NCBI GenBank assembly: GCA_007121015.1 | Contig: SKMN01000030.1 | Span: 1 to 37,486, forward strand | DNA from: Coriobacteriia bacterium | GTDB lineage: Bacteria > Actinomycetota > Coriobacteriia > Anaerosomatales > SLCP01 | Direction of reading: 5' to 3' | DNA: 37,486 nt | Shown: positions 6,171-14,886 of the stretch, piece by piece | Position numbering within the stretch: position 1 is the first letter of the stretch | How the letters are laid out: each line of letters begins with the position of its first letter | Program-made: the position numbers and the translations under genes | The notes under the pieces: model-generated | What the model was told of the DNA's origin: nothing | The model's input: only the letters and a program-made list of their open reading frames with translations | The model's database searches: none

Positions 6171-6198
6171 TTGTGAAATTCTTAGCAATATCTATTGT
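6171..6198 (+). promoter_or_regulatory. Candidate promoter of the seven-heme cytochrome gene
   Basis: TTGTGA at 6171-6176 and TATTGT at 6193-6198 are spaced 16 bp apart, inside a stretch (about 6140-6200) clearly richer in A+T than its surroundings. The start of transcription would be near 6205, giving a leader of about 47 nt to ATG 6252. A second -35-like TTGCAC at 6160 lacks an equally good partner. Confidence 0.4.
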
Positions 6199-6251
6199 TT
6201 CAAGCGCACCCGGGTGGTAACGTCAGAGGTCGGAAGGAGGTGACTACACAT

Positions 6252-7763
6252 ATGAACACACACACAGGTTCGCAAACATCGAAGGGAGGTTCCATGCATG
6301 TGAGAACGCTTCTGATCGCGACGATGATGTGCGCGCTCTTGATCTCCGGCGCATCGGTCGCATTCGCCTCGCCTGACTCCACGGCGTGGGTGGAGCCCGG
6401 TCCTGACACGGTCTCCAACGCCGACGGCGTAAGCAGCTGGTTCTACCAGGACCTGCAGGACGACGTGGCCAAGCGCGAAGGCGGCTACGCTGCGTTCGAG
6501 GACACCATCACGGTGAGCCTCTACAGCGACGGCGACACCACGCCGTACGAGACGTCCGAGCAGCTGGGCTACGTCACCAACCCGCACGGCGGGTACGACT
6601 CGACGTCCAACAAGTGTAAGGTCTGCCACGCAGTGCACCGCGCAGAGGGTGCCTACTACCTGCTCCGTGCCAACAGCCAAGACGACGCGTGCGACTACTG
6701 CCACATCGGCGGTTCCGCTCGCTCGAGGCTGGTCGTCTATGATAACTCGCTCGATGGTAAGTACACGACCAACGGACACACCATCGGCGCGAGCGCCATC
6801 ATCCCCGACAGCTCGGTCAGGCAAGAGCTCGTCGACGTGGAGATCTCGACGGTCGACGAGAACATGGACACGCTCGAAGAGGTCGTAGAGGTCCGCAGGT
6901 ACATGGAGCGTCGTAACGCGATGTTCCGCTTCACCACCCAGCACGGCCACCTGTTCGACCACGGCACGTCCAGCTACTCCCGTGTCGGCCCGACCGCGCT
7001 CAGCTGCATGAGCTGCCACCAGGTGCACAACGCCGAGGCGCTCGTGTGGAAGCCTGTCGAGGCCCCGGCCGGCTACAAGCTGCTCCGTGGCTCGCCCTCC
7101 GGTTCGGTCGTCGGACCCAACCAGCAGGTCGACAGGGTCGCTATGGACTCCGTCCCGACCGGCATGATCGCCCGGGTACCTGAGGTCGAGTTCATCACCG
7201 CTGGCAACACCGGTCCCGTGCCGCACAACGACTATCCCACGATCTGGACCGAGTGGACCGGCCCCGCAGAGGGTGCGTTCGACAATGACGAAGCGCAGAA
7301 CCCATCCTACGTCGGCAGCCCCGGAGCCCTTTCGGTCTGGTGTGCGGACTGCCACAACCTCAACATCGGCTACTTCCGTGACGTCGCAGCCGAGCTCGGC
7401 GGCAAGTCGCACGCAGACAGGACCCACCCGGCCCCGTTCGTGGGCGCCAACGACGGTCCTGGCCAGTGCTACACCTGCCACCGCAACGACATGCCCACGT
7501 ACGGCGAGGCCGGCTACAACTGCAACATCTGTCACCTCGGTTCGGAGGAGTACATCGACATGCGCGCCGCTGCTGAGGCAGCGGACCAGTACGCGCTGTG
7601 GGACTTCCCGCACTCCGGTACGGACAACAGCATCAAGCTGCTCGGCGGTTTCACATCCGAGCTGACGTCGATCGCGGTTGAAGTTGTCGAGACGACGGTC
7701 ACGGCCGACAACCTCGACTCTGTCTGCCTGCGGTGCCACACCGGCATCGGCACGAGGCACTAG
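6252..7763 (+). CDS. Secreted seven-heme c-type cytochrome
   Basis: The product is 503 residues with a Sec signal peptide (LLIATMMCALLISGASVAFA) and no later membrane span, so it is predicted to be exported and released or bound at the surface. Seven CXXCH heme-attachment motifs are visible in order: CKVCH, CDYCH, CMSCH, CADCH, CYTCH, CNICH and CLRCH. The first two form a doubled-CXXCH unit with an extra histidine (CHAVH) and an LLR before the second, and CMSCHQVH repeats that layout. The extra histidines suit bis-histidine ligation. ATG 6252 has AGGAGGTGA upstream; ATG 6294 also has a good GGGAGG and would give a shorter signal peptide. Probable role: electron carriage across the cell wall. 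Donor and acceptor are unknown. Confidence 0.9.
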   Translation: MNTHTGSQTSKGGSMHVRTLLIATMMCALLISGASVAFASPDSTAWVEPGPDTVSNADGVSSWFYQDLQDDVAKREGGYAAFEDTITVSLYSDGDTTPYETSEQLGYVTNPHGGYDSTSNKCKVCHAVHRAEGAYYLLRANSQDDACDYCHIGGSARSRLVVYDNSLDGKYTTNGHTIGASAIIPDSSVRQELVDVEISTVDENMDTLEEVVEVRRYMERRNAMFRFTTQHGHLFDHGTSSYSRVGPTALSCMSCHQVHNAEALVWKPVEAPAGYKLLRGSPSGSVVGPNQQVDRVAMDSVPTGMIARVPEVEFITAGNTGPVPHNDYPTIWTEWTGPAEGAFDNDEAQNPSYVGSPGALSVWCADCHNLNIGYFRDVAAELGGKSHADRTHPAPFVGANDGPGQCYTCHRNDMPTYGEAGYNCNICHLGSEEYIDMRAAAEAADQYALWDFPHSGTDNSIKLLGGFTSELTSIAVEVVETTVTADNLDSVCLRCHTGIGTRH

Positions 7764-7792
7764 TACACGACTCTCGGAAGGAGGGTTTCTCA

Positions 7793-8806
7793 GTGGATAA
7801 CGATCACATCATCACACCGGAGGGATCCGGTATCTCCAGAAGGCAGATGCTGGCGGGCGCCGGTATCATAGCTGCTGGGTACGGTGTTGGTCAGTTGATG
7901 ACCGCTCCCCAGGCCTTTGGTCAGACCCCACTCGACATCGCAGCTGTGGACACGAGCGAGGGTCTTCCCTGGCCGACCGCGTTCAGCGTTCAGGCAAACA
8001 TCGACGAGGCCTGCGAGAAGGCTGCTATTCGCGGGTTCAACCAGTTCAACATTGGAGGCGGTTGAGGCAACGCATCCTACTTTGGACTGGTTTCAGTCCT
8101 TATCGAGTTCGGACTCGCGGACGCCGGGGCCGACCGCTATGCGTGGGAGTACATGGCTCCGGGAGTCGCTGCAACGATTCGCAGCTTCCTCCCCGACCCG
8201 GTCCCCGTCGATATCGGTAGCCACGTAGGAACGATGGGTAGCTACGGTCTGCGCGGTATGAACTCCGGTTCGACGTGCGGTATCAACACCTCCATCTCCA
8301 TGGTCGGCGACCAGGCGCTTCCCAACAGCGTCGTAACTCCTGCTCGCAACACGCCGATCACCGAGGTCCTGCGCCACTTCTCGCTCGATCCGCACCCGAA
8401 CAACGACGTAGGCAACGCGTCGTGGTTCCTGGACCACGAAGACAAGCTCGCGAAGGGCGGCGGTCTCGACGATCCGGTCGCAGGCATGGTGTACGGTTCG
8501 CTCGAGTGTCACTCCGTTGTCGCGAAGCATCGCTCGCGCGGCCAGTTCCTCGGAGGAATCACGGATCCAGATCTCGATCAGTGTCGCTCAGAGTTCTGCG
8601 GTCGCCTTGTCGCCGACATGTGCTACCGGATGCTGAGCAACCTGAACGCCCATTACGGTGGTCCGAGGGGTACGTACGATGATGGTACGACTCCCGCCAT
8701 CGTGGACGTCCCGAGTTCGTGTAGGACCGAGGGCTGCCACGACACAAGCATTCTTCCTGGCGGCTTCACGCCCCAGACTGACTGCTTCGCGTGTCACCAG
8801 GGTTAG
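7793..8806 (+). CDS. Tat-exported C-GCAxxG-C-C / split-Soret-like diheme selenoprotein (UGA read as selenocysteine)
   Basis: One reading frame of 337 residues is interrupted only by TGA at 8063-8065 (residue 91). The start is GTG 7793 with GGAAGGAGGG upstream. Residues 15-43 are a twin-arginine signal (SRRQMLAGAG), which implies folding with a cofactor before export. The frame after the TGA continues the same family: GNASYFGLVSVL, then STCGINTSISMVG (C162), LECH (C239) and QCRSEFCGRLVADM (C264/C269). These line up with the four conserved cysteines of C-GCAxxG-C-C redox proteins, the UGA taking the first position. The C-terminus has CRTEGCH (CX4CH) and CFACH (CXXCH), giving two probable c-hemes as in split-Soret cytochromes. 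It lies 29 bp after the seven-heme cytochrome, so they are probably cotranscribed. Substrate unknown. A truncated 90-residue product is the alternative. Confidence 0.85.
8063..8065 (+). other. In-frame UGA, predicted selenocysteine codon (Sec91)
   Basis: The codon follows NIGGG and precedes GNAS. Both flanks belong to the same protein family and frame, with no other stop between 7793 and 8804. The position corresponds to the first conserved cysteine of the C-GCAxxG-C-C family, a redox position where cysteine-to-selenocysteine exchange is expected. Confidence 0.8.
8084..8099 (+). promoter_or_regulatory. Bacterial SECIS-like hairpin in the coding region
   Basis: GGACT (8084-8088) pairs perfectly with AGTCC (8095-8099) around a six-base loop GGTTTC. 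The stem begins 18 nt after the UGA. The distance, the short stem and a loop opening with G and containing GU fit the bacterial SECIS pattern recognised by SelB, as in formate dehydrogenase mRNA. The stem is short (5 bp), so the hairpin alone would be weak evidence; its placement makes it convincing. Confidence 0.7.
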
Positions 8807-8931: not shown

Positions 8932-9441
8932 ATGATGTCGGTGTCCAAGAGCCAGTCGAGCAGGTACGTCAGAATGGTGCTCGCCGTAGCTGTACTATTC
9001 GGCCTCGGGTTGTCGTTCGCCCACCTCCAGGGCGTGTCGACGGCCGAGAAGCGGGTCGGAATCGGTGTCCTCGGCTCCGGCATACAGCCCGAGGACGCCG
9101 ACTCGTCCACCGTGGGTGGTTGCTACTCGGACTCCTCCGATCCTGAAGCACTCATGGCTGAGATGCTCGGCAGGACCATGGAAGACACTGAAGGCTTTGC
9201 TTCCCCCGGTTCTGACTTCCCGTCGGATCATGCAGACGGACAGGGTGGAGCCGCAGGGTCCGGGACCGGTTCTCAGCCGCCGGGAGCGGCAGCGCCGTCC
9301 GAGGGCGATTCTTCGGGTGACGGAACTGCGGATCAGCCAGCGTCCGGTGACGAAGACGGTTCCGAGGACGACGCAGTCGATTGTCCTCGCCCGAAGGGCT
9401 CCACGTCCCACCCGGTTCCCCGCACGCCGGAGGGGCAGTAA
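8932..9441 (+). CDS. Small acidic exported protein of unknown function
   Basis: The 169-residue product has an N-terminal signal or anchor helix (MVLAVAVLFGLGLSFAHL, residues about 14-31). A short region with VGIGVLGSG and GGCYSDSSDPEALMAEML follows. The last 80 residues are low-complexity, rich in Gly, Ser, Asp and Pro, with DCPRPK near the end. Two cysteines remain in the exported part. No family is recognised. The start is ATG 8932 (a second ATG follows at once) with GTGAGGAAG upstream. It lies between the selenoprotein and the CWB2 surface protein. A linker or partner role in the wall is possible but unsupported by any motif. Confidence 0.6.
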   Translation: MMSVSKSQSSRYVRMVLAVAVLFGLGLSFAHLQGVSTAEKRVGIGVLGSGIQPEDADSSTVGGCYSDSSDPEALMAEMLGRTMEDTEGFASPGSDFPSDHADGQGGAAGSGTGSQPPGAAAPSEGDSSGDGTADQPASGDEDGSEDDAVDCPRPKGSTSHPVPRTPEGQ

Positions 9442-9531
9442 GATGGGTTTGCTCGCGGCCTGCCGTACGTATAGGTCTCGGCATACTCTTTGTGGGCAAG
9501 TATCGGATCTCGAACCGTTGAAAGAAGAGCG

Positions 9532-11685
9532 ATGATGATGACTCTGCGCAACAAGGTACTCGCCGTACTGCTCGCATCGGCTCTGTTCGTGTCTGCGACC
9601 GGGGCCGGCCTCTACCCGTCGTCCGCCCATGCGGTGACGCTCGACCAGGCTCTTGCGGCCCAGGGGAGGATCGCCGGGGGAGGAGAGCACTCGATCTCGG
9701 TACGCTCTGACGGTACGGTCGCAACGTGGGGCGCTACGAGCTGGAGCCGGCGAAGCGTACCACCAGGGCTGAACAGCGTCGTCTCCGTCGCCGCGGGGTG
9801 GGGTCATTCGCTCGCACTGAAGTCGGACGGCACCGTCGTCGGATGGGGCGAGATGCTTGGCGACATACCCGCAGGGTTGACCGATGCGGTGGACATTGCA
9901 GCCAGTGCAGGCAATTCGATCGCTGCCCGTGCGGATGGCACCGTGGTCGCGTGGGGCCCGGTCTTCCCCGAAGTTATGACCGTACCCGACGGGCTCACGG
10001 GTGTCGTGGCGGTCTCAGCTGGCGAGGACCATTTCCTCGCACTGAGAGCAAACGGGACGGTGGTCGCGTGGGGTTACGACACCTACGGGCAGACCCAGGT
10101 CCCATCGGGTCTCAGCAACGTCGTAGCCATAGCGGCAGGCGGGTACCACTCCCTCGCGCTCAGATCCAACGGAACAGTGGTCGCGTGGGGGAACAACGGG
10201 CAACAACAGTGCGCCGTGCCCTCGGGCCTCTCCGGCGTCGTCGCGGTCGCAGCGGGGGTGCGGCACTCCCTCGCGCTGAAGTCCGACGGCACGGTCGTGG
10301 CGTGGGGAGGTCGAACGGCCCTCGGCACTGACCCCTCGGTCAGCGTGCCCACCGGGCTGAGCGGGATCATCGCCATCGCTGCCGGTGAATACTACTCGCT
10401 CGCCCTCAGGAGCGATGGTTCGAGCATCGGGTGGGGCGCGAACGGGTCGGGTCAAAGCTTCGGCGTCGCGTCCTACACACCGGCGGCGGGCTCCGTCATC
10501 TCTGTGCCGATCCCCTTCACGAGGATCGCCGGTAACGACAGGGTCGCCACCGCCGTGGAGGTCTCGAAGACGACCTTTGCAAGCGCCTCGACCGTCATCG
10601 TGGCAACCGCGATGAACTTCCCCGACGCGCTCGCGGCAGCCCCGCTCGCGCATGCCCACAGTGCTCCGATCCTCCTCGTGCCACCGACATCGGTCCCCTC
10701 GGCCGTGACCAACGAGATCACCCGCCTCGGCGCGACGAAGGCGATCATCGTGGGCGGGACGGGAGCTGTCTCTGGCACCGTGGAGACCACGCTCAAGGGC
10801 AGAGGCCTGGCGGTCGAGCGCATCGCGGGCACCAACCGCTACGACACCGCAGCTAAGATCGCCGCTGCGCTCAGGACGGCGCTCGGCGTGCCCGGCTTCG
10901 ACAAGGCCTATGTCGCCACGGGCGAGAACTTCCCCGACGCACTCGCGGCAGGAGGCATCGCCGCGTTCGAAGGCGCACCGATCCTCCTCACCCAGAAGGA
11001 CGCGCTTCCCTCCGAGACGAGGACGGCCGTCACGTCACTTGCGGTGAAACAGACCGTGCTGCTTGGCGGGACGGGTGCGGTCTCGGCCGCGGTTGCAGGT
11101 CAGCTGCCGAGCCCGACGAGGATATCGGGACCTGATCGCTATTCGACCGGCATCGAGGTCGCGAAGTATGGGCTCGACACCGTCGGACTGTCGGATGCGG
11201 CCATCTACCTGGCCACCGGACAGAACTACCCCGATGCGCTTGCTGCCGGGGCCGCGTCGGCGGCGAACGGCATCCCGGTCATCCTCGTGCAGGGCACTCC
11301 ACCTGTCCCTGTGGCGGTTACGAGGTTCATGCAGTCACGCAGTCCTGCTATCAAGCAGATCAAAGTCCTCGGAGGCACCTCCGCGGTGTCAAACGCGGTC
11401 GTCAACAGTGTCAGGGGTGAGAATCCGAGCTTCGTGGTCACGTTCAACTCGCCCGTGCGCGAGGGTCTGAGCAGGTACTACGACACTATCACGTTGACGA
11501 ACAGCGCTGGTGACGGCATCGCCTTCACCAAGTCTTTGAGCGGCAACAACCTCATCGTGACACCATCGACACACCTTCAGGCCGATGAGGCGTACACGTT
11601 GTTCGTTCCTGGACGCGCACTGAGGAACCCTCACAACCTGAGCAATCGAGGGAGCGGCGCGACTTTCTACACGCCTGCTCCGTAA
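9532..11685 (+). CDS. Surface protein: RCC1-type repeats, three cell-wall-binding repeats (CWB2), C-terminal Ig-like domain
   Basis: The product is 717 residues with a Sec signal peptide (VLAVLLASALFVSATGAG). Residues about 40-310 carry seven RCC1-like propeller repeats of the form HSLALKSDGTVVAWG followed by VPSGLSGVVAVAAG. Residues about 325-630 hold three CWB2 repeats, each with RIAGxxRYxTA, NFPDALAA, PILLV and a VLGGTGAVS strand; CWB2 triplets bind anionic cell-wall polymers in Gram-positive bacteria. Residues about 634-717 resemble an SbsA-type Ig-like domain (VTFNSPV to YTLFVPGRALRN). The protein is thus predicted to be held non-covalently on the wall with the propeller exposed. I chose ATG 9532 (three ATGs in a row, GAAAGAAGAG upstream); a TTG at 9490 lacks support. 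It could scaffold the neighbouring cytochromes. Confidence 0.9.
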   Translation: MMMTLRNKVLAVLLASALFVSATGAGLYPSSAHAVTLDQALAAQGRIAGGGEHSISVRSDGTVATWGATSWSRRSVPPGLNSVVSVAAGWGHSLALKSDGTVVGWGEMLGDIPAGLTDAVDIAASAGNSIAARADGTVVAWGPVFPEVMTVPDGLTGVVAVSAGEDHFLALRANGTVVAWGYDTYGQTQVPSGLSNVVAIAAGGYHSLALRSNGTVVAWGNNGQQQCAVPSGLSGVVAVAAGVRHSLALKSDGTVVAWGGRTALGTDPSVSVPTGLSGIIAIAAGEYYSLALRSDGSSIGWGANGSGQSFGVASYTPAAGSVISVPIPFTRIAGNDRVATAVEVSKTTFASASTVIVATAMNFPDALAAAPLAHAHSAPILLVPPTSVPSAVTNEITRLGATKAIIVGGTGAVSGTVETTLKGRGLAVERIAGTNRYDTAAKIAAALRTALGVPGFDKAYVATGENFPDALAAGGIAAFEGAPILLTQKDALPSETRTAVTSLAVKQTVLLGGTGAVSAAVAGQLPSPTRISGPDRYSTGIEVAKYGLDTVGLSDAAIYLATGQNYPDALAAGAASAANGIPVILVQGTPPVPVAVTRFMQSRSPAIKQIKVLGGTSAVSNAVVNSVRGENPSFVVTFNSPVREGLSRYYDTITLTNSAGDGIAFTKSLSGNNLIVTPSTHLQADEAYTLFVPGRALRNPHNLSNRGSGATFYTPAP

Positions 11686-12653: not shown

Positions 12654-13901
12654 TCAGCGATCTATGCGGCCCCCGATGCTAGGGACGTTGAACGGATAGT
12701 TCCTGCCCGGCGGGAGTGTGACCGGCTCACGATACGTGTGGCAGTTCTCGGTGCAGACCCGTGCCGCATGGCAAAGGCCCGTGCACTCGCGCGCGTCGTA
12801 GCGGCGGTGCGACCAGAACGTCTGTGCGTCCGGACCGTGGACCTGGATCTCATGGCACTGCTCGCAGAACGCGTCTCCCTGCGTGAACGGACCGCGCTCG
12901 GAGTAGTGGCACCTCCAGCACACCTGCTTAGCGGTGAACGCAGCCGGGCGGGCATGACCGGGGACTACGAACTCGTCCCACACGTAGCGGGTACCCTCCC
13001 AGTTGGGCGGGTGCGGCATCGTCACGCCGTGGCACGGGAGGCACTCGCTGCTCTCGTCGTGGCAGTCGTAGCAGAAGTCCCAGGAGACATCGACCTCGAG
13101 CCGCTGGGGGAAGTCCCGCTTGGCGGGCCGAGCGCCCTCGCCCACGTCCTCGAGATGGCACACGTTGCACTCGCTCGATGCCTCGTTGCCCTCGTGGCAC
13201 AGCAGACAGGTCGCCATGTTCGCGACACGCACCGGCGTGGTGACACCGGGGTGGCCGACCTGGTTGTGACAGTCGACGCACCGGGAGGCGGCGTCGTTGA
13301 TCTCTTGGTGGCTGACGCGCAGGTTGTAGATGAGGCTCGGCTCTCTCAGCACCTCCCTGTGGCACTTCAGGCACGCCGCGTCGGCGACGTTGCCCCTCAG
13401 GCGCTCGGTCGGCGGCACCTCGTCTGTTGCAAGGTATACGAGCGCCCATCGGGTGAAGTCGACCTTCTGCTGGACGAACCCGCTCACGCCTGGCTTCATG
13501 TGACAGGAGATACAGCTCTCTTCCGCATGGACCGACTCTTCTAGCGACCTCTTGTGTGCGCCGTCGGAGTGGCAGTTGAGACAGTTGCGTTCGGCCTGTG
13601 TGTAGTGCGTGAAGGGGACGGCTATCGCGGCGAGGAGCACGAGCAGCAGGGCGCGGTTGATCCACATCTCCCGGCGGGTCGTCTTGGGCCGGACCCAGGT
13701 GATCCCCTTGCCCTTGCCGCTGACGAACAGGTAGACCGAAACCACCAGCAGCACGAGGATGGCCAGGAGCACCACCACGATGAATAGGCTCAAGACGGCG
13801 AGCGACGGGTTCGACGCGGGTGCGACGAGCGCCTGCTGCAAGTCGAGCAGGAACATGTCGAGGGCATCGCGCCAGTTGAGGCTGTCGGTACCGTTAGTCA
13901 A
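12654..13901 (-). CDS. Membrane-anchored multiheme cytochrome c, 10 CXXCH plus 2 CX3CH motifs
   Basis: The 415-residue product has two N-terminal hydrophobic helices (about 33-60, VLSLFIVVVLLAILVLLVVSVYLFV; and about 83-97, ALLLVLLAAIAVPF) and a long heme-rich domain. Ten CXXCH motifs are seen: CLNCH, CISCH, CLKCH, CVDCH, CLLCH, CNVCH, CYDCH, CLPCH, CWRCH and CEQCH. Near the C-terminus CTGLCH and CTENCH have three residues between the cysteines and may or may not carry heme. The first helices and spacing recall NapC/NirT-type quinol-oxidising cytochromes. The start is TTG 13901 with GAGGGAGG upstream; it overlaps the end of the preceding cytochrome gene by 8 bp, so the two are cotranslated. 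Probable role: passing electrons from the quinone pool outward. Confidence 0.9.
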   Translation of the reverse strand: MTNGTDSLNWRDALDMFLLDLQQALVAPASNPSLAVLSLFIVVVLLAILVLLVVSVYLFVSGKGKGITWVRPKTTRREMWINRALLLVLLAAIAVPFTHYTQAERNCLNCHSDGAHKRSLEESVHAEESCISCHMKPGVSGFVQQKVDFTRWALVYLATDEVPPTERLRGNVADAACLKCHREVLREPSLIYNLRVSHQEINDAASRCVDCHNQVGHPGVTTPVRVANMATCLLCHEGNEASSECNVCHLEDVGEGARPAKRDFPQRLEVDVSWDFCYDCHDESSECLPCHGVTMPHPPNWEGTRYVWDEFVVPGHARPAAFTAKQVCWRCHYSERGPFTQGDAFCEQCHEIQVHGPDAQTFWSHRRYDARECTGLCHAARVCTENCHTYREPVTLPPGRNYPFNVPSIGGRIDR

Positions 13902-14886
13902 GTCCGAGCCTCCCTCGCAACTGTCGCAGGGTGTCGGTGGGGATGCCGGGGTGCGTGTGCGCGGTGTGACACCTCAAACATGCCGAGGGGTTGTGGCACC
14001 GGTAGCACTTTTCTTCGTCCTCTTCGGGAGTACCCGAGTGCGCCTGGAGGAACCCGTCAGGGTGCGGCATCTCCATCTGATGGCACGCGTAACAGAACCG
14101 CTCGTAGTCGTGACACGTGTAGCAGACACCTTCGGTCTCGACGGCCACCGCTGCTGCGCCGTGACGGTAGTGGAAGCCGGCGGGATGCGGCATCTCGATC
14201 CCATGGCATCTCGTGCAGTACGAGGGGTGGTGGCACACGTTGCATGTCTGCAGTCCGCCCATCCCGTGGAGCGCTTGCCAGTTCTCGCCGTGGGTCAGTC
14301 GCCAGACGCTCTGGTACGGTCTGCGGTCCGTCGTCCTCTCGCCCGCGTGACAGATCTCACACCGCGCGCTCTCGAGCGAGCTGTGACACGAGAAGCAGTC
14401 GAACATGTCGACGCGCCGGATGGTGTCGCCGATGAGCGTGTGGCCGGTGTCGGAGTGGCAGTCCGAGCACAGGTAGCCTCTGGCGAGCTTCTCGCGGTGG
14501 CTCATGCGGATGCCTGTGTCGGCGACAAAGGTGGTCAGCACCTGCTCGGCGTGGCACGAGGTGCAGTTGTCGTTGGTGACAAGCGTCGTCTCCGGCTGCC
14601 TTCCCAGTGCTGTGGCTGGAATCATTCGTGAGTAGCTGACGCGGAAGTTCAGCCGCTCCGTGATGGTCGTGCCACTGTGACACGAGTTGCACGAGACGGC
14701 TGCGTGTAGCTGCTCGGTATGGGACTCGGCCACGGCTGAGTGACATGCCGTACAGGTGGATTCGACCGGTGCAAGGCTCATCGACACGAATGCATAGATG
14801 ACGAATCCCAGCAACGCGACCTTCACGGCGAAGATCGCGCGGTCCTCGAGTTCGCGACGCTTCCGTCTCTGCTCCCGGCTGCTCAC
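13894..14886 (-). CDS. Membrane-anchored dodecaheme cytochrome c
   Basis: The 330-residue product has one N-terminal membrane helix (IFAVKVALLGFVIYAFVSMSL, about 18-38) after a basic cytoplasmic start. Twelve CXXCH motifs follow: CTACH, CNSCH, CTSCH, CSDCH, CFSCH, CEICH, CNVCH, CTRCH, CYTCH, CYACH, CYRCH and CLRCH. Heme density is very high, about one per 24 residues of the outer domain, which suits a wire-like electron carrier. The pattern CHGIEMPHPAGF and CHQMEMPHPDGF also appears once in the downstream cytochrome, so the two proteins share modules. The start is GTG 14886, overlapping the preceding stop by 4 bp (GTGA). Likely forms a membrane-to-surface relay with its two cotranscribed neighbours. 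Confidence 0.92.
   Translation of the reverse strand: MSSREQRRKRRELEDRAIFAVKVALLGFVIYAFVSMSLAPVESTCTACHSAVAESHTEQLHAAVSCNSCHSGTTITERLNFRVSYSRMIPATALGRQPETTLVTNDNCTSCHAEQVLTTFVADTGIRMSHREKLARGYLCSDCHSDTGHTLIGDTIRRVDMFDCFSCHSSLESARCEICHAGERTTDRRPYQSVWRLTHGENWQALHGMGGLQTCNVCHHPSYCTRCHGIEMPHPAGFHYRHGAAAVAVETEGVCYTCHDYERFCYACHQMEMPHPDGFLQAHSGTPEEDEEKCYRCHNPSACLRCHTAHTHPGIPTDTLRQLRGRLGLD

Follow-up and report, generated by a model that had tools for sequence, protein, structure and literature searches.

The region at 7793-8806, which gene finders split in two, is very probably one gene whose internal UGA is read as selenocysteine (Sec). It lies in a 37,486-nucleotide stretch of DNA from a Coriobacteriia bacterium, the whole of which is called the window here. 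Sequence comparison places its 337-residue product in the split-Soret / C-GCAxxG-C-C superfamily as a divergent, Tat-exported split-Soret cytochrome c, in which four cysteines outside the haem motifs are invariant and the UGA aligns with the first of them. Our high confidence refers to Sec decoding in a split-Soret relative; the proposed role of the selenium in an iron centre is more tentative and is discussed separately. Features are on the plus strand unless stated otherwise.

Reading frame of the gene

Translated from GTG 7793, the frame is interrupted by a single stop, TGA 8063-8065 (codon 91), and ends at TAG 8804-8806. The two same-phase open frames parted by one TGA that were described in the original prediction thus form one frame of 337 residues with no other stop. 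A strong Shine-Dalgarno sequence, AGGAGGG (7779-7785), precedes the GTG and is also found ahead of the homologous gene in genome G001, described below. It had been expected that standard gene calling would report two fragments. The mechanical ORF list indeed splits the gene and gives the downstream ORF as 8153-8806, but it begins the upstream ORF at 7733, with 110 residues, because an earlier in-frame GTG is present. The codon use of 7793-8806 is unusual for the window: GTT makes up 18% of its Val codons, compared with 3% across the window genes. In the G001 homologue, GTT makes up 15% of Val.

The downstream half had been described as having no start or ribosome site of its own near its beginning. 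This holds as far as 8153, where an ATG is preceded by a weak GGGAG 3 nt upstream. Such a start would be compatible with two separate proteins, one a short exported peptide and the other translated from an internal start, for example at codon 121. However, the second protein would have haem motifs without an export signal, and codons 92 to 120 would be lost although this stretch is partly kept in the G001 homologue. We consider two separate proteins extremely unlikely.

A homologue with the same TGA

A family-wide search found one homologue, in genome G001, which belongs to a different genus of the same family. The two proteins are 42% identical in a local alignment and 46% identical in a global one. 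The G001 gene has exactly one in-frame TGA, and in the alignment this is the same codon as the window TGA. The homologue and the window gene are the only two Sec genes known of this kind. The other 67 of the 69 genomes searched in the order, including a genome of the same genus (85% complete), do not have the gene, which is therefore rare. Two scans of genome contigs returned no relative.

The surroundings of the gene are also conserved. When 16 window ORFs were compared with G001, the gene and 12 others were matched within the same 19-kb stretch, and the matches keep their order and relative orientation, except for a leuB-like gene beyond the cluster. The hypothetical gene at 8932-9441 has no detectable match in the G001 stretch. 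Amino-acid conservation between the two proteins continues across the TGA. The changes at codon positions 1, 2 and 3 number 27, 24 and 52 upstream of the TGA and 104, 84 and 122 downstream of it, so that third positions change most on both sides. All cysteines and haem motifs 3' of the TGA are intact.

These comparisons bear on the possibility that the TGA is a real stop, either in a decayed pseudogene or produced by a sequencing or assembly error. Standard gene calling yields two fragments, and selC is not in the assembly, as a real stop would have it. However, in another genus TGA stands at the identical codon, both the protein and the synteny are preserved to either side of it, and neither the excess of third-position changes upstream and downstream nor the intact motifs beyond the TGA fit such a stop. 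A sequencing error, which the original prediction had raised as a possible refutation, is very unlikely because a second genome carries the same TGA, and the synteny of the flanking genes likewise makes both an error and a pseudogene very unlikely. Taken as a whole, a real stop has a very small probability.

Protein family and conserved cysteines

Eight proteins were aligned: the Sec pair and six Cys relatives, the latter taken from other families within the phylum. Residues invariant in all eight include the twin arginines R16 and R17, W60, the Sec column, C162-G163, C239-H240, C269 and the last haem motif. The upstream half carries a Tat signal, as had been proposed: the twin-arginine (SRR) signal peptide region at 7832-7918 matches TIGR01409 over residues 14-42 with a sub-threshold E-value of 0.069, and its RR is invariant. 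At the Sec column all six Cys relatives have Cys, while the nearest homologue, that of G001, has TGA. This agrees with the placement of the UGA at the first conserved cysteine of the family. The four conserved positions keep their order, and the second forms a CG: U91, C162 in a TCG motif (8276-8278), C239 followed by H240 (8507-8512) and C269 in a CGRL motif (8597-8599). They are followed by two C-terminal haem motifs, a CX4CH (C310-H316, 8720-8740) and a CxxCH, CFACH (C331-H335, 8783-8797). The first of these motifs is CxxCH in the G001 homologue.

In the NCBIfam scan, the window protein matches the split-Soret family NF047622 over residues 222-337 (E 9.6e-8) with 31.8 bits, far below the equivalog cut-off of 400 bits. 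Because of this score it is best described as a divergent member of the superfamily and not as an NF047622 equivalog. The same scan gave no match to TIGR01909, and a Pfam scan of the window protein alone gave no match up to E 10, hence none to PF09719 (C_GCAxxG_C_C). Six of the eight proteins in the alignment do match PF09719, which ties the C-GCAxxG-C-C name to the split-Soret family. The assignment to the C-GCAxxG-C-C family in the original prediction is thus correct at the level of the superfamily; with PF09719 unmatched in the window protein, the split-Soret branch with two haem motifs is the more exact placement.

Circularity was avoided by building one profile from the Sec pair and another, separately, from the six Cys relatives. 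Compared with each other, the two match with an E-value of 1.9e-15 over 247 columns, and all four Cys columns are matched. The joint family profile, with Sec and Cys members, matches the split-Soret cytochrome c of Desulfovibrio desulfuricans ATCC 27774 (PDB 1h21; NF047622) at 6e-54, a value driven by the Cys members; the profile of the Sec pair alone reaches 6e-4, over the C-terminal part only. The window protein, which belongs to the same superfamily, shares with 1h21 the four invariant cysteines outside the haem motifs, a CGRLxAD block and the haem motifs near the C-terminus, of which the last is CxxCH. It differs in having Sec for the first cysteine, insertions in its middle part and CX4CH as its first haem motif. 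With the C-GCAxxG-C-C family, annotated as '(seleno)protein' in TIGR01909, it has the four-Cys pattern in common, but its two haem motifs set it apart.

The use of Sec in the C-GCAxxG-C-C family, which the original prediction took as established, is borne out by two reviews from 2022 and 2026, both of which include the family; the later one lists C-GCAxxG-C-C selenoprotein forms 1 and 2 (PMC13188914). Among the entries of the 2026 review are ExtKL and the octahaem tetrathionate reductase family, which like the window protein are c-type cytochromes with Sec (PMC13188914). They belong to other families (NF040886 and TIGR04315), and the NCBIfam scan of the window protein returned neither. The two reviews include a few multihaem cytochromes among the selenoproteins, and a text search of these open-licence papers found no split-Soret cytochrome.

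A candidate SECIS hairpin

A candidate bacterial SECIS upper stem-loop, GGACUG-GUUU-CAGUCC, is located at 8084-8099. The limits for bacterial SECIS elements given in the 2026 review are a loop of 3-9 nt, a stem of 4-16 bp, a G in the first two loop positions, a spacing of 16-37 nt and a minimum free energy of at most -7.5 (PMC13188914). The window hairpin lies within all of them, with 6 bp, a GUUU loop that has G first, 24 nt between the UGA and the loop, and -9.2 kcal/mol. G001 shares the position, the loop and the four inner pairs, and at the fifth pair it has C-G where the window has G-C. The isolated G001 hairpin has -5.7 kcal/mol, short of the -7.5 limit, and lies within the other limits. 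The run ACTGGTTTCAGT is one of the gene pair's two longest identical runs, and two of its codons are rare in the window genes; within the loop region, the codons GTT (3.2% of Val) and TCA (3.1% of Ser in the window genes) are conserved in the pair. An equally good shared hairpin was found at 2.3% of 3,956 aligned codons in 13 neighbouring gene pairs, and the z-score of the hairpin is about 0.1 to -1.2. Because of this background the hairpin was rejected as a stand-alone proof. By itself it is modest evidence for Sec decoding, a support rather than a proof.

Selenocysteine machinery

Absence of selA, selB and selC from the genome had been named as a refutation of the original prediction. Three of the four sel genes, selA, selB and selD, are present in the source genome, together on contig C35, with selA and selB above cut-off. 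The order is selD-selA-selB, and next come genes for a YedE-like transporter and a small SirA/YedF-like protein, whose names were read from the translated sequence and not from a family scan. The selD gene (C35, 22102-23016) is itself a selenoprotein gene, as its GUAAK motif contains a TGA. Neither Rfam nor ARAGORN nor two selC patterns detected selC in the assembly contigs. The tRNA-Sec search gave 15 matches at E <= 1e-3, and the eight loci checked by ARAGORN are ordinary tRNAs only. selC was not found either in the searched genome of the same genus (85% complete).

Four other genera of the family have selC (72-76 bits, anticodon TCA). In the relative G003 there are three tRNA-Sec matches over cut-off (75.9, 49.3 and 49.3 bits), and the two lower-scoring matches could be serine tRNAs. 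selC adjoins selB in G002 and G006, and in G007 it is flanked by selB on one side and, on the other, by a photolyase gene whose stop is 56 nt ahead of selC. Contig C25 of the source genome ends at 70122 inside a photolyase gene, a few codons before the expected stop, and the stretch just before the photolyase start matches the G001 stretch between selC and a nitroreductase gene. In G001, selC is near the nitroreductase gene and no photolyase gene was seen at the matching place. A photolyase gene cut by the contig end, together with the synteny with G007 and G001, suggests that selC of the source genome is most likely in the assembly gap at the end of C25.

An assembly in which selC is unseen would also be compatible with the UGA being read as another amino acid, by a Trp or suppressor tRNA. 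However, TGA is the ordinary stop of 5 of the 20 window genes, the Cys relatives have Cys and not Trp at this column, and selA, selB and selD are complete. The probability of such a reading is negligible.

Neighbouring genes and a proposed iron centre

The upstream neighbour (6195-7763) is a seven-haem c-type cytochrome, syntenic in G001 (54%). On the minus strand, 12654-14886 holds two adjacent cytochromes with 10 and 12 CxxCH motifs, syntenic in G001, with weak NrfH/HmcA-like matches. Next to the cytochromes is the gene of a large exported protein (9490-11685, syntenic in G001), in which RCC1 repeats are combined with three CWB2 cell-wall-binding repeats. With neighbours of 7, 10 and 12 haems, the split-Soret relative is likely part of an exported electron chain.

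We propose that SelB would bind the GUUU hairpin and that the ribosome would decode the UGA as Sec. The folded protein would be exported through Tat and would gain two c-type haems; Tat export suggests cofactor insertion ahead of export. By homology, Sec91, C162, C239 and C269 are likely to be the iron site. In the proposed mechanism, Sec and the three cysteines would most likely hold a non-haem iron centre, as described for the D. desulfuricans split-Soret cytochrome, and this centre would hand electrons to the haems and then to the neighbouring multihaem cytochromes. The AlphaFold model of the window protein is poor (pLDDT 47), and a fold search with it gave no significant match.

The selenium could instead serve as a free redox selenol, with thiol/selenol chemistry and no iron ligation, in a protein that does contain Sec. 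Thiol-type oxidoreductase is the presumed role of most known bacterial selenoproteins, and the name of PF09719 is that of a putative redox-active protein. However, the Sec column belongs to the set of four invariant cysteines, and these cysteines and the split-Soret match fit a family in which a novel iron centre is reported for the D. desulfuricans protein, according to the title of Abreu et al. as cited in PMC5701242. A free selenol is a possibility of some weight, though on the improbable side. That Sec is a ligand of a non-haem iron centre of the Fe-S type in an exported electron-transfer cytochrome is, by analogy with the D. desulfuricans protein, a tentative proposal with slightly less than an even chance. 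We know of no established case of Sec as an iron-sulphur ligand in nature, and a search of open-licence papers returned nothing on this subject.

Our analysis would add split-Soret cytochromes to the known selenium proteins. With the gene pair, the question of whether an iron centre can be held by selenocysteine can be addressed directly; if it is so held, Sec would tune the potential of the centre or open the cytochrome to catalysis. Since gene callers split such cytochromes, more of them may hide in the genomes of anaerobes.
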